Source: Streptomyces sp. V3I7 (GTDB lineage: Bacteria > Actinomycetota > Actinomycetes > Streptomycetales > Streptomycetaceae). From it: a stretch of DNA of 64,000 bases. Below the pieces are notes generated by a model that was not told the DNA's origin, did no database searches, and was given only the letters and a program-made list of their open reading frames with translations. The translations under genes were made by a program, and so were the position numbers. This document shows positions 5,637-56,482 of the stretch, piece by piece. Every line of letters begins with the position of its first letter. The stretch's first letter is position 1. The stretch covers positions 2,831,001-2,895,000 of the forward strand of contig NZ_JAUSZK010000001.1 in NCBI RefSeq assembly GCF_030817495.1. Direction: 5' to 3'.

Positions 5637-8378
<2,742 letters not shown>

Positions 8379-8688: not shown

Positions 8689-9696
8689 ATGAGCACGAGA
8701 TCCGATGTGATCGACGACGCCCCGGAGGCGACCGGCACCACGCCCGCGTCCGCGACGCTGGGCGGAGAGCAGAAGCGTTCGATCGAGCAGATCGCGCTGC
8801 TGGTCTTCATCATCGTGCCGTTCCTCGCGCTGCTGGCCGCGGTGCCGCTGGCGTGGGGCTGGGGGGTGAGCTGGCTGGACCTCGGTCTGCTGGTCTTCTT
8901 CTACTACCTGGGCTGCCACGGCATCACCATCGGTTTCCACCGCTACTTCACGCACGGTTCCTTCAAGGCCAAGCGGCCCCTGCGGATCGCGCTGGCGGTC
9001 ATGGGGTCGATGGCGGTGGAGGGACCGCTGGTGCGCTGGGTGGCGGACCACCGCCGGCATCACCGGTTCTCCGACGCGGAGGGCGACCCGCACTCGCCGT
9101 GGCGGTTCGGGGAGACGGTCCCGGCGCTGATGAAGGGCCTGTGGTGGGCGCACATCGCATGGATGTTCGACGAGGAGCAGACGCCGCAGGAGAAGTACGC
9201 GCCGGATCTGATCAAGGACGGGGCGATCCGGGCGGTCTCCCGCCAGTTCGCGCTGTGGACGGTCGTCTCGCTGCTGCTGCCCGCGCTGATCGGCGGTCTG
9301 GTGACCATGTCCTGGTGGGGCGCGTTCACCGGGTTCTTCTGGGGCTCGCTCGTGCGGGTGGCCCTGCTGCATCACGTGACGTGGTCGATCAACTCGATCT
9401 GCCACGCGGTCGGCAAGCGGCCGTTCAAGTCGCGTGACCGTTCGGGGAACGTGTGGTGGCTGGCGGTCCTGTCGTGCGGTGAGTCCTGGCACAACCTGCA
9501 CCACGCCGACCCGACCTCGGCACGGCACGGTGTGGAGCGGTGGCAGCTGGACTCCTCCGCGCGGATCATCCGCTGGTTCGAGCGGCTGGGGTGGGCGTAC
9601 GACGTGCGCTGGCCGTCACGCTCGCGTATCGATTCCCGCCGCAACACCGCGGAAGAAGGCTCCCGGCAGGGGGCGGACTCGGCGAAGGCGGCATGA
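8689..9696 (+). CDS. Membrane acyl-CoA / fatty-acid delta-9-type desaturase
   Basis: Integral-membrane di-iron desaturase (335 aa) that introduces a cis double bond into acyl chains, tuning membrane fluidity. The three histidine clusters are HRYFTH (84-89), HRRHH (121-125) and HNLHH (268-272). Hydrophobic segments at about 36-56, 62-80 and 188-222 match the family topology. ATG at 8689 is chosen because the reading frame upstream has no resemblance to the family; CAGGGAA lies about eight bases upstream. The stop overlaps the ATG of the TetR gene (ATGA), so the two are translationally coupled. Regiospecificity cannot be read from sequence; delta-9 is by family resemblance. Confidence 0.93.
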   Translation: MSTRSDVIDDAPEATGTTPASATLGGEQKRSIEQIALLVFIIVPFLALLAAVPLAWGWGVSWLDLGLLVFFYYLGCHGITIGFHRYFTHGSFKAKRPLRIALAVMGSMAVEGPLVRWVADHRRHHRFSDAEGDPHSPWRFGETVPALMKGLWWAHIAWMFDEEQTPQEKYAPDLIKDGAIRAVSRQFALWTVVSLLLPALIGGLVTMSWWGAFTGFFWGSLVRVALLHHVTWSINSICHAVGKRPFKSRDRSGNVWWLAVLSCGESWHNLHHADPTSARHGVERWQLDSSARIIRWFERLGWAYDVRWPSRSRIDSRRNTAEEGSRQGADSAKAA

Positions 9697-10367
9697 TTGA
9701 CGGCGTGGCGACCGACTCCAGCACCCCCAGCAACGACAAGCCGCGGCGTGCCCGCCGCACCCGGATGACCGGCGCCGAGCGCCGTCAGCAGTTGCTGGAG
9801 ATCGGTCGCACGCTCTTCGCGGCGAAGGGCTTCGAGGGGACGTCGGTGGAGGAGATCGCGGCGAAGGCCGGGGTGTCCAAGCCGGTGGTGTACGAGCACT
9901 TCGGCGGCAAGGAGGGGCTGTACGCGGTGGTGGTGGACCGCGAGATGCGGTGCCTGCTGGACATGGTGACCGGCAGCCTCACCGCGGGTCACCCCCGCGA
10001 ACTGTGCGAGCAGGCCGCCTTCGCGCTCCTCGACTACATCGAGGAGTACACGGACGGCTTCCGCATCCTGGTCCGCGACTCCCCCATCCCGCAGTCCACG
10101 GGCTCCTTCGCCTCGCTCATCTCGGACATCGCCACGCAGGTGGAGGACATCCTCGGCCGCGAGTTCAAGAGCCGCGGCTTCGACCCCAAGCTGGCCCCCC
10201 TGTACGCCCAGGCCCTGGTCGGCATGGTCGCCCTCACCGGCCAGTGGTGGCTGGACGTACGCCGCCCGAAGAAGGCGGAAGTGGCCGCCCACCTGGTGAA
10301 TCTGGCATGGCACGGCCTGGACGGGCTGGAGCAGAAGCCTCGGCTGATAGGGCACCGGAAGAGCTGA
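9693..10367 (+). CDS. TetR/AcrR family transcriptional regulator
   Basis: A 224-aa regulator with the TetR helix-turn-helix at about residues 35-80 (GTSVEEIAAKAGVSKPVVYEHFGGKEGLY) and a divergent ligand-binding C-terminal domain ending in a basic tail. The ATG at 9693 overlaps the desaturase stop by 4 bp, so it is part of the same operon. Physical coupling plus the tandem TACG-N4-CGTA palindromes in the operon promoter suggest autoregulated control of fatty-acid desaturation, probably sensing an acyl-CoA. Ligand and operator are inferred. Confidence 0.93.
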   Translation: MIDGVATDSSTPSNDKPRRARRTRMTGAERRQQLLEIGRTLFAAKGFEGTSVEEIAAKAGVSKPVVYEHFGGKEGLYAVVVDREMRCLLDMVTGSLTAGHPRELCEQAAFALLDYIEEYTDGFRILVRDSPIPQSTGSFASLISDIATQVEDILGREFKSRGFDPKLAPLYAQALVGMVALTGQWWLDVRRPKKAEVAAHLVNLAWHGLDGLEQKPRLIGHRKS

Positions 10368-12323: not shown

Positions 12324-13052
12324 GTCGGCGGGTCCCACTCCGGCCCGGCGCGCGAGAGCGACCGCCGCGAGCGTGGAGTGGACGCCCAGTTTGCCGAGGA
12401 CGTTCTGCATGTGGGTGCGGACCGTGTGCGGGGAGAGGAACAGGCGCTCGGCGACCGCCTTGCGGCCGAGGCCGGCCACCATGCAGCGGAGCACCTCGCG
12501 CTCGCGCGGGGTCAGCGACTCCACGAGCCGTTCGCTCTCGGTGCGGTGCTTGCGGGCGGCGGTCAGCTCGCGCAGCACGCCGGTGAGCAGGGCGGGCGGG
12601 AGATGCGTCTCGTCGCGCAGCACGCCCCGTACGACCGTGAGCAGCCGGGACAGCGAGCAGTCCTTGGCGACCCACCCCGAGGCCCCGGCCTGGAGCGCGA
12701 GGGCGGCTCGCCGCGGCTCGTCCCGCTCGGCGAGTACGACGGTCCGTACGCCGGGCTGGGCCGACCGCACACCGCCGACCAGCGAGATCCCGTCGACGGG
12801 CCCCTCCGCGGCGGCCTCCGGCACCGGCGCCGCCGACCGCGCACCGGGCAGCCGGCCCCCGCCCAGATCGGCGTCGACGAGCAGGACGTCGAAGCGGCGG
12901 CCCTCGGTGGCCGCCCGCTCCAGACAGCGCAGCGCCGCCGGACCGCTGCCGGCGGCGGACACCTCGACATCGGGCTCGGCGGCCAGGGCGGCGGCGAGCG
13001 ACTCGGCGAAGATGCGGTGGTCGTCGACGACCAGGACTCGGATGCGAACCAT
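12282..13052 (-). CDS. LuxR/NarL-type response regulator, orphan
   Basis: A 256-aa regulator with an intact receiver domain: acidic pair D10/D11, phosphoacceptor D60 in LLVDADLGG and the conserved Lys in WVAKDCS. The C-terminal HTH contains LTPREREVLRCMVAGLGRKA and PHTVRTHMQNVLGKLG. A long Gly/Pro-rich insert after D60 is unusual. No histidine kinase is adjacent, so it is an orphan. The 5' leader carries 2.7 copies of a 9-bp repeat (CTGGTTCAA on the plus strand, 13068-13087). It overlaps tamR tail-to-tail by 42 bp. Confidence 0.9.
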   Translation of the reverse strand: MVRIRVLVVDDHRIFAESLAAALAAEPDVEVSAAGSGPAALRCLERAATEGRRFDVLLVDADLGGGRLPGARSAAPVPEAAAEGPVDGISLVGGVRSAQPGVRTVVLAERDEPRRAALALQAGASGWVAKDCSLSRLLTVVRGVLRDETHLPPALLTGVLRELTAARKHRTESERLVESLTPREREVLRCMVAGLGRKAVAERLFLSPHTVRTHMQNVLGKLGVHSTLAAVALARRAGVGPADLSGDVVERGGQLA

Positions 13053-13106
13053 GAAACCCCCACTGGTTCAACTGGTTCAACTGGCTCTGAGAAACGCCGA
13101 CCGGCG

Positions 13107-13189
13107 CGGGTACGGCACCCGCCGATGACGGAGACCGCACGGCCGCCGCCGTGCGAAGACTGTTACCCCCACCGCGGGTGCCGTACCCG
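13107..13189. repeat. 16-bp inverted repeat pair between divergent genes
   Basis: CGGGTACGGCACCCGC (13107-13122) and its exact reverse complement (13174-13189) are separated by 51 bp. Each copy is itself nearly palindromic (GCGGGT...ACCCG). They lie between the divergent LuxR and GNAT genes and could be paired operators or a large cruciform. Confidence 0.6.
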
Positions 13190-13311
13190 ACTTGTCTCGC
13201 CCCCTGATCAGCACCGGCCCCCACCGGCGCTGTTCCTCAGAGTACGGACGCGGGCGTGGAGCGGAAGGCGATTTGCAGAACTGTCCGTCCAGCGCGCCTA
13301 TGGTGTGCCGC

Positions 13312-13755
13312 ATGTTTCGTATCGAGGCGGAAGTCGACAAGGCGCGGCGCGATCTTCTCCACTCCCGGCTGCGGGAGACCAACACGGCCGCGTCCCCCGT
13401 CCTCGCGGCCCTGCGCGGCACCACCGCCGAACGCCAACTCCCGCTCCACATCTGGGCGATGACCGGCGCCGACGAGCTGGCCGGCGGCCTGGTGGGGCAC
13501 ACCTGGAGCACCTGGCTCCAGGTGACGTACCTCTGGGTCGACGCCGTCCACCGGGGTACGGGCCTGGGCTCCCGGCTGCTCGCGGAGGCCGAGCGCGCCG
13601 CCCGCGAGGACCGCGCCTGCCGCGCCGCCCGCGTGGAGACGTGGGACTTCCAGGCGCCGGACTTCTATCGCAAGCGGGGCTACGAGGTGGTGGGCGTGGT
13701 CCCCGACTTCCCGCCGGGCGTCACGGAGTTCACGCTCACGAAGAAGCTGGCGTGA
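13312..13755 (+). CDS. GNAT family N-acetyltransferase
   Basis: A 147-aa acetyltransferase with the acetyl-CoA binding motif A spanning VTYLWVDAVHRGTGLGSRLL (about residues 78-97; R/Q-x-x-G-x-G/A form RGTGLG) and motif B around DFYRKRGYEVVGVV. Substrate is unknown. ATG 13312 is used; ATG 13300 in the same frame would add MVCR. No clear ribosome-binding site is present, and TATGGT lies at 13299-13304, so a short-leader or leaderless transcript is possible. Confidence 0.85.
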   Translation: MFRIEAEVDKARRDLLHSRLRETNTAASPVLAALRGTTAERQLPLHIWAMTGADELAGGLVGHTWSTWLQVTYLWVDAVHRGTGLGSRLLAEAERAAREDRACRAARVETWDFQAPDFYRKRGYEVVGVVPDFPPGVTEFTLTKKLA

Positions 13756-13777
13756 GCCGCGCGCCGGGCGGTCGAGG

Positions 13778-14572
13778 TCACGGCAGGATCGCGTCGACGT
13801 AGCCGCCGTCCACGCGCAGGGCGCCGCCGGTGGTGGCCGAGGCCTGGTCCGAGGAGAGGTAGACGACCATGTTGGCGATCTCCTCCGGTTCGATCAGCCG
13901 TTGCAGCAGGGACTGCGGCCGGTACTCGCGCATGAAGGCGCGTTGCGCCTCGTCCCAGGGCAGCTCGCGGTCGACGAGTTCGTACACGAAGTCCTCGATG
14001 CCGGCGGTGTGGGTGGGCCCGGCGATGACGGAGTTCACCGTGACGCCGGTGCCCGCCGCCTTCTTGGCGAATCCGCGGCTGACCGCGAGCAGGGAGGTCT
14101 TCGACATGCCGTAGTGGATCATCTCCGCCGGGATGACGATCGCCGAGTCGCTGGCGATGTACAGCACCCGGCCCCAGCCGCGCTCGGTCATGCCCGGCAG
14201 GTACAGCCGGGTCAGCCGCACCGCGGCCAGGACGTTGACCTCGAAGTAGCGCCGCCACTCGTCGTCGGTGATCTCCAGTGGGTCGGCGCTGCCGAAGATG
14301 CCGAGATTGTTGACGAGGATGTCGGCCTGCGGCAGCTCCCGCAGCAGCCGGGCCGCGCCCTCCTCGGTCGACACGTCGGCGGCCACCCCGGCCAGGTGGG
14401 CTCCGGGCACCGCGGCGGCCAGCCGCGCGACGCTCTCGGCCACCCGCCCCTCGTCCCGGCCGTTGACCGCCACGCGGGCACCGGCGCGGGCGAGGCCCTC
14501 GGCGATCGCCGCGCCGATGCCCTGGGTCGAGCCGGTCACCAGGGCGGTGCGGCCCGTCAGATCGATACGCAT
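13778..14572 (-). CDS. Short-chain dehydrogenase/reductase
   Basis: A 264-aa NAD(P)-dependent oxidoreductase with the classical SDR features: TGSTQGIG cofactor motif (14-21), NNLG in place of NNAG (near 89), an active-site Ser (YIASDSAIV) and the catalytic YGMSK pair. The C-terminus GGALRVDGGYVDAILP is typical. The glycine-rich sequence resembles 3-oxoacyl-ACP reductases, but no fatty-acid genes are near; the substrate is unknown. The start is preceded by a GTGAC-N5-GTCAC palindrome and, further upstream, by a 23-bp minisatellite. Confidence 0.9.
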   Translation of the reverse strand: MRIDLTGRTALVTGSTQGIGAAIAEGLARAGARVAVNGRDEGRVAESVARLAAAVPGAHLAGVAADVSTEEGAARLLRELPQADILVNNLGIFGSADPLEITDDEWRRYFEVNVLAAVRLTRLYLPGMTERGWGRVLYIASDSAIVIPAEMIHYGMSKTSLLAVSRGFAKKAAGTGVTVNSVIAGPTHTAGIEDFVYELVDRELPWDEAQRAFMREYRPQSLLQRLIEPEEIANMVVYLSSDQASATTGGALRVDGGYVDAILP

Positions 14573-51506: not shown

Positions 51507-51573
51507 CCGGGCACGATACCGGCACACTGGACCACGCCCGACCGACCGACCGCATGGATAGATGGTGCCCCGC

Positions 51574-52050
51574 ATGAACATACGCCGCGTCCGGTTCGAC
51601 CACCCCGACGCCGTGAAGCTCAGCGACGAGGTCCAGGCCGAGTACCACGTGCGCTACGGCGACGGCGGCGACGCCACCGAGCTGAACACGACCGACTTCG
51701 ATCCGCCACAGGGCGTGTTCCTGATCGCCTACGACGAGCACGACCGCCCCGTGGCCACCGGCGGCTGGCGCAGCCAGGACGAGAACGGCGAGGGCAACCA
51801 GAACGGCGACGCCGAGCTCAAGCGCATGTACGTGATCACGGAGATGCGCGGCCACGGCCTCGCCCGCCGCATACTGGCCGCCCTGGAAGCCGACGCCCGC
51901 ACGGCCGGCCGCACCCGCATGGTCCTGGAGACCGGCACCAAGCAGCCCGAAGCGGTCGCCCTCTACCGCTCGAGTGGCTACACCCCCTGCACGAAGTTCG
52001 GCTTCTACCGCTTCCACGCGGAGAGCCTGTGCTTCGCCAAGGCGCTCTGA
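51574..52050 (+). CDS. GNAT family N-acetyltransferase
   Basis: A 158-aa acetyltransferase: AELKRMYVITEMRGHGLARR contains the R/Q-x-x-G-x-G/A acetyl-CoA motif, and AVALYRSSGYTPCTKFGFYR is motif B. Substrate unknown. ATG 51574 follows a short leader; an in-frame start at 51562 is the alternative. It is the last core gene before the accessory segment. Confidence 0.86.
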   Translation: MNIRRVRFDHPDAVKLSDEVQAEYHVRYGDGGDATELNTTDFDPPQGVFLIAYDEHDRPVATGGWRSQDENGEGNQNGDAELKRMYVITEMRGHGLARRILAALEADARTAGRTRMVLETGTKQPEAVALYRSSGYTPCTKFGFYRFHAESLCFAKAL

Positions 52051-52123
52051 TCGCCTGCACAGGACCCACCGACGGGCCGGGCAGCGGCGGTAGTTCGCGC
52101 TCGGCCCGGGCTCGCCGCGCCTG

Positions 52124-52213
52124 CCCCGGAAACGCCGAGACCCCGCCTGATCCAGTGGATCGGACGGGGTCTTGCGAACTACTCCGAGAGAACTCGGGAG
52201 AGTTGATGCGTGG
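52124..52213. repeat. Left 90-bp direct repeat (hairpins) flanking the accessory segment
   Basis: Begins CCCCGGAAACG, has a hairpin with arms AGACCCC/GGGGTCT and inner GATCC/GGATC (52138-52172), a second CCGAG-AGAA-CTCGG hairpin (52184-52197), and ends GATGCGTGG. It is about two thirds identical to 56320-56411, with paired substitutions conserving both stems. The stem can also terminate the GNAT gene. Confidence 0.75.
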
Positions 52214-52419
52214 GGTGTTCACGAGTGCTGATGACGTGCGGCGATAAGAGGCCCTGAAGATCGTTCTGCGTGCTGACGAAGGTCGTTCCCCAGCCGCCAG
52301 GGAAACGGAACCGGTCGCCGCCGTTCGGCCGCTCGTGAGGTGTGCGTGACCGGCCCGCTGCTCTGTGCCCCTCTTCTGGGTGATGGCGCCGGGGCGAGTT
52401 TCGAAGTAGTTTCAAAGTT
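52214..52419. other. Non-coding leader of the accessory pair
   Basis: A 206-bp stretch without a credible gene. It ends in GTTTCAAAGTT before the ATG of the antitoxin-like gene. Its AT content is higher near 52400-52420, which may hold the promoter of the pair. Confidence 0.5.
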
Positions 52420-52899
52420 ATGAGCACCGAGAACGCCGCCGTGAACTTCTCCGAGCTGGTGAACAAGAACAAGCAGACCCTTGCCCGGCTCCAGGAATCG
52501 CCGAGACTGCTGCTGCACCGCAGAGACGGCGAGGATCTGGTCCTCACCACCGCGGCGCGGGCCGAGCAGGACCAGACGGTGGTGTCGGCAGCCACCCGGA
52601 TGCTGGCCGCGATGGCGCGCCGGGAGCCCGGCAGCATGGAACTGCTCCTCGACATAATGCCGGACGCATTCCCGTGGGTCCGTTTCCTGCCCGAGTCCGA
52701 TCTGCACGCTTTCGCTGTCGAGCTGGTCGACACCATGCGCGCCGCGGACTCAGTCGGCAACAGCGCCTCTGTCGCCCAGTTGCTCATCGCCTGGCAGCAC
52801 ACCGCCGAGGTCTACTCCGACCCCGAACTGCTGGCCGCGCTGACCAGGGATCACGGCGAGGACTACGGCCCGGCAGCAGACCCACGGGGCGTCGCATGA
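52420..52899 (+). CDS. Phd-like antitoxin/hypothetical protein
   Basis: A 159-aa protein. The N-terminus (MSTENAAVNFSELVNKNKQT, then LHRRDGEDLVLTTAARAEQD) resembles Phd/prevent-host-death folds: a NFSELV entry and an LxRRDGEDLVL strand. The C-terminal half (about 80-159) is a helical extension. ATG overlaps the next gene by 4 bp (ATGA), as in toxin-antitoxin operons. I infer it is the antitoxin of the pair. Confidence 0.65.
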   Translation: MSTENAAVNFSELVNKNKQTLARLQESPRLLLHRRDGEDLVLTTAARAEQDQTVVSAATRMLAAMARREPGSMELLLDIMPDAFPWVRFLPESDLHAFAVELVDTMRAADSVGNSASVAQLLIAWQHTAEVYSDPELLAALTRDHGEDYGPAADPRGVA

Positions 52900-53255
52900 C
52901 CGCGAGTCGCGGCGACCGCGCCGCACCCCCGGCACCGGACGGCCACTGGGAGGTCCGCTTCGCCGACGCCGCCTCGGCCAAGGGCTGGGAGAGCCTCGCC
53001 CAGCAGGCCCGCGAGAACACCTACCGCGCCTGGACGACTATGCGCACCGCCCCCAGACCGGCCACCGAGACACCCCGGCACCACCGGCTCAAGGGCGGTC
53101 TGGCGCACGGAACCCACCGCGGACAGACCTGCGAGCAATGGCAGATCGAGGTGACCGGCGGCGGCCGCATCTGGTACCTCCTGGACACCGCCCGCGACAC
53201 CTGCTGGATCACCTTCGCAGGCACCGGGCATCCGCGAGCCACAGACCGACGCTGA
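52896..53255 (+). CDS. RelE-like putative toxin
   Basis: A 119-aa protein with WEVRFADAASAKGWESLAQQ, a basic LKGGLAHGTHRGQTCEQWQI segment and GRIWYLLDTARDTCWITFAG ending, consistent with a RelE-like beta-sheet with exposed basic residues and a C-terminal TGHP-x-ATD motif. It is translationally coupled to the previous gene. The family assignment is by pattern and is moderate. The alternative is a small unrelated hypothetical. Confidence 0.6.
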   Translation: MTASRGDRAAPPAPDGHWEVRFADAASAKGWESLAQQARENTYRAWTTMRTAPRPATETPRHHRLKGGLAHGTHRGQTCEQWQIEVTGGGRIWYLLDTARDTCWITFAGTGHPRATDRR

Positions 53256-53496
53256 GCCGGCACAGCCGGGTGGGCGGGACGCACAACGAGGAGATGACCA
53301 GGCTCGACTCGCCGAAGTTCGTTCCACATGTGCGTAACGATCGTTTCCCGACTCTGGGCCGAGTTCAGCGATTGCAGGGCTGCAGGGCGCCTGGTCATGC
53401 GCCGATGGACCAGCCGGTGCAACACCGACTTCCTCGGCCCGGAACGACTGATCCGGGCATGACGCTGAATCCGGCGAATGGTTGCTTCCCGCGTTC
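53256..53496. other. Intergenic region, no gene seen
   Basis: 241 bp between convergent genes with no supported coding frame, RNA or strong hairpin. Confidence 0.5.
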
Positions 53497-54654
53497 TCAG
53501 GAGTGGCGGTGATACGCCTTGTTGGCGATACGCCAGCTGTCGTCGGTGCGGACCAGCAGGAAAATGTCGGTGAACGTGTCTGCGCCGTGCGAGAGCGTCA
53601 TGGTTGCAGTCGCGACGGTGCCGTGGACGTCGATGGCGTCGATGCGGCGGGAGCGGGTCGGTTCGTCCGGGGCCGGCCGGCCTTGGAAGAGAGCGCAGTA
53701 TTCGTCCAGGCGCCAGGAGACGAATGCGCCGTCGCGGAGCCCCTCGATGTGGGCAGTGGGCAGGAACGCGTCGCTGAAGTGGGTGGGGTCCCCGGTGGAG
53801 TGTCCGCGGATGTAGGCGCGGAGCGGTTCGAGTACGGCGTCTTCTGCGGCGGGGACCGTGGCGGCAACCGCGATGTCGGCCTCAGGGGCGGCAGGGGTGT
53901 CGGCCAGGCCGGCTGCGCTGCGCAAGGGGGTGTTGGACGCGGCGGCCAGCAGAGCCATGTCCTTGGCCAGCGCGCCGATGGTGAATTCGGCCATGACAGC
54001 GCCGGGCTGGTCGGCGAGGAAGGGCCGTTTGCGGGCCACGAGCCCGCCGAGTTGGCCGAGTTCGAGGACGTCAAGTACCTGGGCACGGGTCAGGTCGAGG
54101 GCATCGGCTTGCCGTAGTGAGTCGCGCAGCGCGAGGACGGCGCCGGCGAGGCTGTTGTTGGCGATCAGCTTCAGCGCGGCGGCAGTGGCGGCGTCATCGA
54201 CGTGCCGGATGGTGCCCAGCGCTTCCAGAACCGGTCGGACTCGATCAAGCGCGTCTTGGTAGGCGGCGGCAAGAATCTGCAGGGTTCCGGCGGCGGCGGC
54301 CGGAACAGAGCCGAGCACGGGCGCGTGGACGTAGGCCGGGCCGAGTTGCCGGGACAGCTTCGACGCTTCGGCGGGAGCGATGGTGCTGGTGTTCAGCACC
54401 ATCGTGTCCGTTCGCAGCGAGCCACGGACGTCGTCGAGAACCTGCTGGCAGGCCGGGCCGTCGAACAATGCCAGGAGCACGAAGTCGGCCTTCGCCACGG
54501 CGTCGTTCGGATCGCCGGTCGTCTTGACGGCACCTGATGTGCGCCCCGAGCGTGTCCAGCCGACGACGTCCCAGCCCTGGGTGGCCAGTCGTGTCGCGAT
54601 CGCCTCGCCCATGCGCCCCAGGCCGAGGACGGCGATCGTGTGCGGTGTGGTCAT
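53497..54654 (-). CDS. HIBADH-type dehydrogenase fused to an NTF2-like domain
   Basis: A 385-aa two-domain protein. Residues about 1-260: hydroxyacid dehydrogenase with AVLGLGRMGEAIATRLATQG, NTSTIAPAEA and LKLIANNS. Residues about 275-385: an NTF2-like (lumazine-binding/SnoaL) domain, with YIRGHSTGDPTHFSDAFLPT, IEGLRDGAFVSWRLDEYCAL and a C-terminal DIFLLVRTDDSWRIANKAYH. The junction at about 265-275 is Ala/Pro-rich. ATG 54654 is used. Divergent from a LysR regulator, its probable controller. Confidence 0.85.
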   Translation of the reverse strand: MTTPHTIAVLGLGRMGEAIATRLATQGWDVVGWTRSGRTSGAVKTTGDPNDAVAKADFVLLALFDGPACQQVLDDVRGSLRTDTMVLNTSTIAPAEASKLSRQLGPAYVHAPVLGSVPAAAAGTLQILAAAYQDALDRVRPVLEALGTIRHVDDAATAAALKLIANNSLAGAVLALRDSLRQADALDLTRAQVLDVLELGQLGGLVARKRPFLADQPGAVMAEFTIGALAKDMALLAAASNTPLRSAAGLADTPAAPEADIAVAATVPAAEDAVLEPLRAYIRGHSTGDPTHFSDAFLPTAHIEGLRDGAFVSWRLDEYCALFQGRPAPDEPTRSRRIDAIDVHGTVATATMTLSHGADTFTDIFLLVRTDDSWRIANKAYHRHS

Positions 54655-54681
54655 GCGCGCCAGAATGGTGCACCACGAAGG

Positions 54682-54696
54682 CTGCGACAAGCGCAG
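54682..54696. promoter_or_regulatory. LysR box (T-N11-A) between dehydrogenase and LysR gene
   Basis: CTGCG-ACAAG-CGCAG has perfect arms and contains the T-N11-A pattern (T54683 to A54695). It lies 28 bp from the dehydrogenase start and 54 bp from the LysR start, typical of divergent LysR control. Confidence 0.6.
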
Positions 54697-54749
54697 ATTG
54701 TGCAGGCCAGCCCTGCGGAGTTCGCATACCGGCTGGGCATACTGGCGCC

Positions 54750-55721
54750 ATGGAACTGACGGTGTGGCGGACCTTCGTGACCGTATGCCGGCTCGGGTCT
54801 CTGTCGGCGGCGGCCGCCGAGCTCCATCACACGCAGTCGGCCGTCTCCCGGCAGATCGCCGGGCTGGAGCGGCAGCTCGGCGTGCCGCTGATCGAGCGGC
54901 ACGCGCGCGGTGTGCGCCCGACGCCTGCCGGTGAGGTGTTCCGGCACCACGCTCTGGCCACGCTCAGCGAGGCCGACCGCGCCGTACGTGCCGCACGGGA
55001 GGCCGGCGACGGGGCGTTCAACCGGCCGCTGACGGTCGGCGCGACACCTTCTCTTGCCGCAGGGATCGTCCCCGAGGCCATCCGGGCCCTGCAGAAGGAG
55101 ACCGGATCCATCCGGTGGAGCCTGCTCCCCGGCTTGAGCGCACAACTGCACCACCGTGTGACCACCGGCGATCTCGACGTTGCCATCGTCACCGATGCAC
55201 CGCCAGGGCTGCCCCATGACCCGCGGGTCGAACGCCGGTTCCTCGGGCTGGACGACATGGTCGTCGCACTGCCCGTCGACCATCCACAGGCCGGGCGCGG
55301 CCCAGTGCGCATGCAGACACTGGCCGACCAGACCTGGGTCGAGGACAACGACGGCTCAGCGGCACTCCTGCACCAGCACGCCGCCCGCGCCGGAGTCAGC
55401 GCCTGTATCGACCTCACCGCGGCCGATCTGCCCGGCAAGCTGGCCCTGGTCGCAACCGGCCATGCGATCGCGCTGATACCCGGGGTGTTGACACGCGCGC
55501 TGCGGCCCGATGTCACCACGGTGAGCCTCGTCAATCCCCCGGCACGCGGCATCTACACGGTCACACCAGGTCGTGGCCCCCACCCCTGCGCAGCGCCCCT
55601 GCTCGACCAGCTCGCCACAGCCTTCGCCTCGGTCCGTCCTGCCCACGCCGCGCACCGGCCGACCGGTACGGATGCCCACCCCACTGGGCCGGCACTTTAC
55701 GACGGCATCACGGACTCGTAA
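54750..55721 (+). CDS. LysR family transcriptional regulator
   Basis: A 323-aa LTTR with the N-terminal HTH (VCRLGSLSAAAAELHHTQSAVSRQIAGLERQLG, residues 12-44; shorter parts in the start of that frame) and a C-terminal substrate-binding domain with DLDVAIVTDAPPGLP. It ends in an unusual His/Pro/Thr-rich tail. ATG 54750 is used. It is divergent from the fusion dehydrogenase with a T-N11-A box between. Confidence 0.9.
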   Translation: MELTVWRTFVTVCRLGSLSAAAAELHHTQSAVSRQIAGLERQLGVPLIERHARGVRPTPAGEVFRHHALATLSEADRAVRAAREAGDGAFNRPLTVGATPSLAAGIVPEAIRALQKETGSIRWSLLPGLSAQLHHRVTTGDLDVAIVTDAPPGLPHDPRVERRFLGLDDMVVALPVDHPQAGRGPVRMQTLADQTWVEDNDGSAALLHQHAARAGVSACIDLTAADLPGKLALVATGHAIALIPGVLTRALRPDVTTVSLVNPPARGIYTVTPGRGPHPCAAPLLDQLATAFASVRPAHAAHRPTGTDAHPTGPALYDGITDS

Positions 55722-56319
55722 GCCGGGGCTCTTCGGGATGGGGATACCGCTGGCTTTCCCAACTGTCAGACGTGGTTTGGCGTTTCTGGTGCATCGTACT
55801 GGCAGAGCTGGCCGAGGCCGCCGGGCGGGCTACCTGTTCCGGCCCGGCCGGAAGGTGGAGGCGGCGAAGAACCTGGTGTCCTCGTGGCCGGCCCGGCACG
55901 GGCCGCCCGCCGGGCTGCCGCCGCTGTCGGCCCGCCGTCTGCGCCCCAAACACGGCCCGGCACCAGGCCAGGTCGCCCAGACCCTCCTGGTCGCCCTCAT
56001 GGTCCCGCCGGCAACCTCGACATCCTCGAAACCTGGCTCTACCAGCGCACCGGCACCCAACTCACCGACACCAGCTTCGACTGCCGACACCATCCCCCAA
56101 CAACCGGAACAGCCGGAGAATGCCCCGCCCACAGGGATCGGACGGCCACCTCCGCCCACTGAATGAACCGCCACTCGAAGAACAATCCCCACACCTGATC
56201 GCGGCCAGCCCCGGCGCCCCGGGGCTGGCCGCCATGCCTTCAGCAGCCTGCGGCAGCACACCAACCCAGCCCCCACCACGGACCGCTGCCGTCCACCACC
56301 CCGGACAGGCTCGAACAAG
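55722..56319. other. Degenerate accessory DNA, no gene supported
   Basis: About 600 bp with several overlapping open frames but none with conserved content or a ribosome-binding site. The proline- and arginine-rich translations look like shadows of high-GC DNA. Possibly the remains of a mobile element or lost gene. Confidence 0.5.
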
Positions 56320-56411
56320 CCCCGGAAACGACGAAGATCCCGACCGATCATGAAGATCGGCGGGATCTCGTCAACCGACCTTGAGTTAACTCAAGAACGG
56401 CCGATGCGTGG
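56320..56411. repeat. Right 92-bp direct repeat abutting tRNA-Ala
   Basis: Matches the left copy: CCCCGGAAACG, hairpin AGATCCCG/CGGGATCT with inner CCGATC/GATCGG (56335-56368), a perfect palindrome CTTGAGTTAACTCAAG (56380-56395), and GATGCGTGG. It overlaps the last three bases of the tRNA 3' end (minus strand), so one copy acts as the tRNA terminator. Confidence 0.75.
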
Positions 56412-56482
56412 ACCTGAGGGGATTTGAACCCCTGGCCCCCTCGATGCGAACGAGGTGCGCTACCGGACTGCGCCACAGGCCC
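56409..56482 (-). tRNA. tRNA-Ala (CGC)
   Basis: A 74-nt cloverleaf on the minus strand. The acceptor GGGCCTG pairs with CAGGTCC and has the G3-U70 pair that is the alanine identity element. The D arm is GCGC/GCGC. The anticodon stem CCTCG/CGAGG carries loop TTCGCAT with anticodon CGC (codon GCG). The T arm has AGGGG-TTCAAAT-CCCCT. Discriminator is A73; CCA is not encoded. Confidence 0.96.

Follow-up and report, generated by a model that had tools for sequence, protein, structure and literature searches.

Positions 52124 to 56411 of the window, by which we mean the whole 64,000-nucleotide stretch of Streptomyces sp. V3I7 analyzed here (contig NZ_JAUSZK010000001.1, positions 2,831,001 to 2,895,000), hold a set of accessory genes between two related hairpin-forming repeats, the right one of which touches a gene for tRNA-Ala(CGC). 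The question raised by this locus is how these genes came to lie there. The initial annotation had proposed an old insertion at a tRNA, or a duplicated tRNA terminator used as an insertion junction. Our results support an old insertion at the tRNA, in which the repeat serves at once as insertion junction and as a terminator-like flank of the tRNA. They also extend this reading: since it turns up at non-tRNA sites and on plasmids as well, the repeat is best interpreted as a transposon's left end (LE). We consider it quite probable that the 4,192 bp from 52213 to 56404 are a decayed copy of a DDE transposon targeting the 3' ends of tRNA genes, the mobility of which we infer from sequence comparison. 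The features computed for this element are a conserved LE hairpin at the position expected for the tRNA terminator, a conserved right end (RE) with iterons spaced by 22 bp, a 6-bp target duplication right at the end of an intact tRNA gene and, in less decayed relatives, a module encoding a helix-turn-helix (HTH) protein, a tyrosine-recombinase-fold protein (Y) and a DDE transposase (D).

The two repeats lie where they had been described (left copy, 52124-52213; right copy, 56320-56411), and their relatedness was verified. Both contain CCACGCATC (minus strand) and CGTTTCCGGGGC, and the stems between these two shared blocks carry substitutions. Each strand of each copy folded better than its shuffled versions (four folds, z from -4.0 to -6.7). 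When RNAalifold was applied to a mixed alignment, the terminator stem alone was retained; both stems were then tested on a narrower set of 13 related sequences, in which 11 of 29 pairs were altered on both sides, compared to 4.5 in shuffles. Across these 13 sequences 91.5% of the cells were paired, and sliding the partners reduced every measure. The earlier proposal that paired substitutions conserve both stems thus holds. BLASTN with the left copy against its own genome matched nothing beyond the left copy itself, and a covariance model (R1) was therefore required. R1 was built from 28 tRNA-Ala 3' flanks, of which 27 came from other loci and one was the right copy. The left copy, excluded from the training, scored 67.9 bits (E 1.4e-14), and the right copy, a training member, 81.7 bits. 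In the genome of strain V3I7, for which 150 of 3454 first-look candidates were scored, high scores were confined to these two sites, the next new site reaching 25.2 bits. A strict exact pattern matched both copies and three further places in 101 genomes, and an Rfam scan reported tRNA only. A resemblance to integron attC sites was considered and dropped on the basis of the attC consensus only.

The right copy contains the element's LE (56320..56404, minus strand), which consists of a GTTC..GAG palindrome, a terminator-like hairpin and CGTTTCCGGGG. The intact tRNA-Ala(CGC), the target gene, lies at 56408..56482 on the same strand (ARAGORN; Rfam RF00005). The overlap of the right copy with the 3' end of this tRNA was confirmed, but the part shared is the terminal CCA only.

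The opposite end of the element, RE (52213..52293, minus strand), carries two iterons near GGGRAACGATCTTC, 22 bp apart, followed by CACTCGTGAACACCC; CACTCGTGAACACC sits directly inside the left copy. Searches with a 21-letter RE pattern, allowing up to three mismatches, listed 85 matches in 74 of 295 genus genomes (reversed control, 38), including four exact matches and three with one mismatch. From these, 14 regions were taken. One of them, L148 (a two-mismatch match), was dropped because it lacked the iterons. The 13 loci that remained supplied 15 ends, and adding those of L030 and the window brought the alignment to 17 ends. The alignment is almost gap-free, with two 14-bp iterons at a spacing of 22 bp and an identical terminal sequence in every end, an invariance that is partly due to selection by the search pattern. 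A profile built from these ends (R2) gave 65.8 bits for the window RE, itself a training member, and matched 77 of 295 genus genomes at E ≤0.001, counting weak and partial matches. That both repeats fall within one intergenic region would suit a local duplication in which slippage or gene conversion copied the tRNA terminator and unrelated genes came to lie between the copies; the presence of the same RE junction in many other genomes makes this explanation extremely unlikely.

The hexamer CACGCA occurs twice on the minus strand, at 56405..56410 on the tRNA side and at 52207..52212 beside RE, and we read it as a target-site duplication. Wherever both ends of a tRNA element were seen, the six letters following the last T/C of the tRNA were compared with the six that follow RE. 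The two hexamers agreed in 14 of 19 elements, compared to 4.31 on average and no more than 11 in permutations. The agreeing hexamers were CACGCA, CACGCT, CACCGA, CACCGC, CACAGA and CACAAC, each paired with its own kind. At non-tRNA sites, three of four elements, one of them on a plasmid, had the same hexamer on both sides (GCGGTC, TACAGC and GGCTTC), the latter two matches allowing one letter's freedom in the position of the RE end; the fourth, L195, which has a weak LE, had no flank duplication. We also noticed that L277 (about 8190-8240, reverse strand), at a tRNA-Ala(GGC), carries a second copy of part of the tRNA 3' end after RE, and that LE-like ends occur in a single genome (G159) at tRNA-Pro(GGG) and after RE (L189 194-357 and L212 2864-2957).

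The less decayed relatives contain Y and then D between the tRNA and RE, both transcribed toward the tRNA. Locus L143 and the window align colinearly, with DNA identities of 78-87%, over the acetyltransferase gene, RE, the antitoxin-/toxin-like pair, the dehydrogenase gene and the LysR gene. Compared to L143, about 1.9 and 1.8 kb are missing from the window. What had been described as degenerate DNA between the repeats turns out to contain fragments of both proteins, for Y at 55831..55944 (plus strand; tblastn 70 bits, 89% identity) and for the C-terminus of D at 56007..56141 (plus strand; 54 bits, 64% identity, colinear with L143). These two deletions took most of Y and D, and the window copy should therefore not move by itself. 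In L143 an HTH_3 gene adjoins Y, and the order HTH-Y-D recurs on both Streptomyces plasmids examined, among eight records with a D match. The D of L143 and P0080, which its source labels Streptomyces sp. 378, are identical. Among the matches listed at E 0.001 were at least 79 homologs of Y and at least 157 of D, which are named mostly as hypothetical proteins and in a few cases as integrase or transposase. A search of phages for D gave no match.

Neither D nor Y of L143 matched Pfam or NCBIfam above cutoff, and no transposase model, including the DDE_Tnp_1 type, matched any of 49 D members (Pfam on 49, NCBIfam on one). D has a complete DDE triad in an RNase H-like fold. The YREK motif of IS4/Tn5 transposases and the usual duplication lengths of IS4 elements are the background for its comparison: the signature Y is present in 46 of 49 members and R, E and K in all 49, but with the spacing Y-(3)-R. 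The Y protein has the fold of a tyrosine recombinase, and Pfam Phage_integrase matched two of 49 members weakly (best E 0.012). The active R-H-R-H/W-Y set is incomplete, however: in the 49 aligned members, the Tyr is found in 44 and Arg-II in 47, whereas Arg-I is absent from all, the box-II His is present in two and the third-box His/Trp in none.

These residues bear on two other explanations. An ordinary tRNA-integrated island would have an active tyrosine integrase, with the repeats as attL and attR. Such islands exist at the same tRNA, for L011 (13196-13329) and L058 (about 12560-12640) contain classical att duplications from other islands, whose far junctions repeat a 3' piece of the tRNA together with the terminator, and the fold of Y would be in keeping with this explanation. 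The window differs from L011 and L058 in having no duplicated tRNA 3' segment other than CCA, for which reason the identification of the repeats as attL/attR was dropped. In addition, none of the 49 aligned Y sequences has Arg-I or the third-box His/Trp, flank duplications are also found at unrelated non-tRNA sequences, and D has kept its triad. We therefore regard an ordinary island as very unlikely. Alternatively, Y might be the catalytic recombinase and D an accessory protein, with exchange at a shared core of 6-7 bp. The Tyr and Arg-II retained in most Y members would fit this proposal, as would the inverted arms ACTCGTGAACA / TGTTCTTGAGT that flank a short spacer at a joined RE-LE junction. 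The core, however, varies between genomes and follows the target, as DDE duplications do; with Arg-I lost from Y and the full triad kept in D, this proposal is very unlikely as well. A DDE transposon whose targets are tRNA 3' ends remains our preferred explanation.

The association with tRNA genes was assessed from D, profile searches for which matched 56 of 295 genus genomes and nine of 396 genomes phylum-wide. The loci consisted of all 15 phylum-wide matches and the best 30 genus-wide, shared ones counted once, and numbered 37 after five double entries were removed. In 31 of these 37 distinct loci an intact tRNA gene faces D, and the D match ends 125-385 bp away from it. The tRNAs are Ala(CGC), Ala(GGC), Leu(GAG), Leu(CAG), Leu(UAA), Met(CAU) and Ser(GGA). 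The loci lacking a facing tRNA are L227, L236, L243, L247, L256 and L260, of which L247 is the second element of an array; a tRNA-Ser(GCU) call that overlaps D in L243 was taken as a false prediction. For the control DDE family PF01609, a tRNA was found in 0 of 30 loci (mean length 3.4 kb vs. 4.0 kb for the D loci). A second, more distant Y-D pair is present in the V3I7 genome at tRNA-Leu(GAG) (L264; G000:C1:5652602-5654449). It has an open D frame, its left end follows the plan of the window LE and ends in TCGTCGTTTCTGGGG, and the pair also occurs in several other Streptomyces.

If Y selects the target, its divergence might track the tRNA. Among pairs with 30-45% D identity, Y identity was 42.9 for the same target (n=28) and 33.2 for different targets (n=76); at 45-60% D identity it was 48-50 for same and different targets alike. 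The pairs are non-independent, and this test of a link between Y and target is suggestive only.

In the loci read, RE was directly followed by LE in at least 10 of 37 LE matches inspected, these loci having been chosen for their RE. Such adjacency implies that one tRNA is often reused, and the left copy of the window (52123..52206, minus strand) is thus probably the LE of an older insertion that has lost its body. Otherwise it would be the native flank of tRNA-Ala, beside a single insertion. Comparison of this locus among Streptomyces is informative here. The 80 named loci, the best 80 of 544 from a search with the neighboring conserved protein, each have tRNA-Ala(CGC). Sites without inserted genes, which the initial annotation had suggested looking for, do occur: both genes were found in 67 loci, and in 30 of these the gap between the tRNA and the acetyltransferase gene is 52-252 bp. 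This interval therefore takes up insertions repeatedly. A strong LE-like flank follows the tRNA in 29 of the 80 loci, 27 of which are in the R1 training set. In favor of a native flank, LE-like flanks are found in tight intervals (e.g., L009, L036 and L088), and RE, D and Y are absent from most of the 29 loci. On the other hand, many genomes carry a single AAGCCCC..GGGGCTT hairpin there instead, LE is not restricted to tRNA sites, the arrays are common in the loci read, and traces of D or Y are seen in three of the 29 loci (L030, L065 and L078) compared to none of the 51 others. We consider a native flank a serious possibility, albeit one somewhat on the doubtful side, and prefer the reading of the left copy as a previous LE.

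Several observations weigh against a tRNA-targeting DDE transposon. D or Y traces are scarce even in the LE-flanked tRNA-Ala loci, among which L030 alone yielded an RE, besides a weak one in L011; LE-like flanks without RE, D and Y can be native or very old scars. As RE, D and Y are rare among the 80 loci, the remaining insertions there belong for the most part to other kinds or have decayed too far to be assigned. By eye, a tRNA-type flank follows only 23 of 47 distinct RE-like ends, the remainder lying elsewhere, and the first RE set was chosen with a pattern that includes this flank. Many RE-like ends without a tRNA-type flank have no D or Y within the DNA examined, and in the Leu, Met and Ser elements no RE was recognized. 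The hexamers disagree in five of the 19 tRNA elements (L030, L192, L186, L189 at tRNA-Pro, and L277, in which five of six letters are equal). Foldseek alone gave a weak match for D (best E 0.002), Y identity tracks the target only weakly, and Y, which keeps Tyr and Arg-II in most members, may still be active.

For the transposon that we favor, the following mechanism is proposed. D, a Tn5-like DDE enzyme, would cut and join, while Y, with most of its catalytic residues lost, would direct insertion by binding either the palindromic end or the 3' region of the tRNA. The LE hairpin would replace the displaced terminator, so that the tRNA would be spared and the site could be used again. Each new copy would enter next to the tRNA, ahead of the previous LE, so that LE...RE-LE arrays build up, and the left copy of the window would probably be such a previous LE. 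That Y may be the target selector is suggested by its fold, its lost catalytic residues and its association with D, and has a precedent in TnsF. More broadly, and at nearly even chances in our judgment, these elements might form a class of tRNA-homing transposons throughout the Actinomycetota, in which a degenerate Y reads a particular tRNA and hands it to a Tn5-like D, the tRNA address is lineage-specific, LE is a replacement terminator and a second, non-tRNA route leads to plasmids.

Two of the genes between LE and RE are read as cargo. A LysR-family regulator (54750..55721, plus strand; Pfam HTH_1 and LysR_substrate above cutoff) matches DNA in L143, L011 and, partly, L019. Next to it is a dehydrogenase fused to a lumazine-binding-like domain (53497..54690, minus strand; Pfam NAD_binding_2 and Lumazine_bd_2 above cutoff), a region colinear in L143 and L011. 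The toxin-antitoxin-like pair of the initial annotation is borne out in part: the antitoxin-like protein (52420..52899, plus strand) has a DUF6247 match below cutoff (E 0.0013), and the small toxin-like protein (52896..53255, plus strand), joined to the upstream gene by an ATGA overlap, had no Pfam match when scanned from 52899. Window positions 52209-53259 are 89% identical to a stretch of L151 beside another RE. There the pair and RE (8961-10012) lie at a different locus in which no tRNA was found, so that RE and the pair may move together. A weak RE-like remnant (53291..53350, minus strand; R2 19.1 bits, E 0.0023, model positions 2-66), situated between the dehydrogenase and toxin-like genes of the window, suggests a composite of two elements. 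In L030 (Streptomyces sp. TRM68416), a gene that we take to be folD-like (12867-13778) is cargo beside RE. The chromosomal flank of the window is an acetyltransferase gene, presumably of GNAT type (51562..52050, plus strand), with an ortholog in 67 of the 80 tRNA-Ala loci.

No name for this element family was found, and full-text literature searches, which covered titles and abstract openings and left subscription papers largely outside, showed no such element. It differs from IS4/Tn5-type elements (IS50) in that its D lacks a Pfam/NCBIfam transposase match, its duplication is 6 bp, its target is a tRNA and it has Y as a partner. It resembles actinomycete integrative elements in tRNA genes (AICEs) in its location at a tRNA 3' end. 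AICEs duplicate a longer tRNA 3' segment via an active integrase, and such a duplication is not seen in the window. According to the published account, the Tn7-like Tn6022 has a TnsF with a tyrosine-recombinase fold that is catalytically inactivated, the chemistry being done by the DDE system (PMC10293859). Tn6022 with TnsF, and likewise Tsy, is thus alike in being a site-specific element with a target selector of this fold, but Tn6022 is described there with comM as target, TnsA/B/C plus TniQ, and zinc fingers on TnsF (PMC10293859), whereas the present element has tRNA 3' ends as target, a single Tn5-like DDE protein and a short Y of 307 aa. No AAA+ protein, TnsC or TniQ was found among the scanned proteins of L143 and L312, the scan covering part of the genes. 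Insertion beside an essential gene without breaking it is shared with Tn7, which uses TnsD at glmS (PMC2918618), as is the presence of some copies on plasmids. No sequence match to Tn7 proteins turned up, and no search was aimed at them.

If correct, these findings would provide a case outside Tn7 in which a tyrosine-recombinase fold serves as the DNA address reader for a DDE transposase, and in which few genes suffice for exact, safe-harbor insertion at tRNA 3' ends. Target selection would be directly testable by exchanging Y between lineages, and the system might become a site-specific insertion tool for Streptomyces. It would also account for some tRNA-gene islands that have no recognizable integrase and would show how a mobile element brings its own terminator and thereby spares an essential gene.
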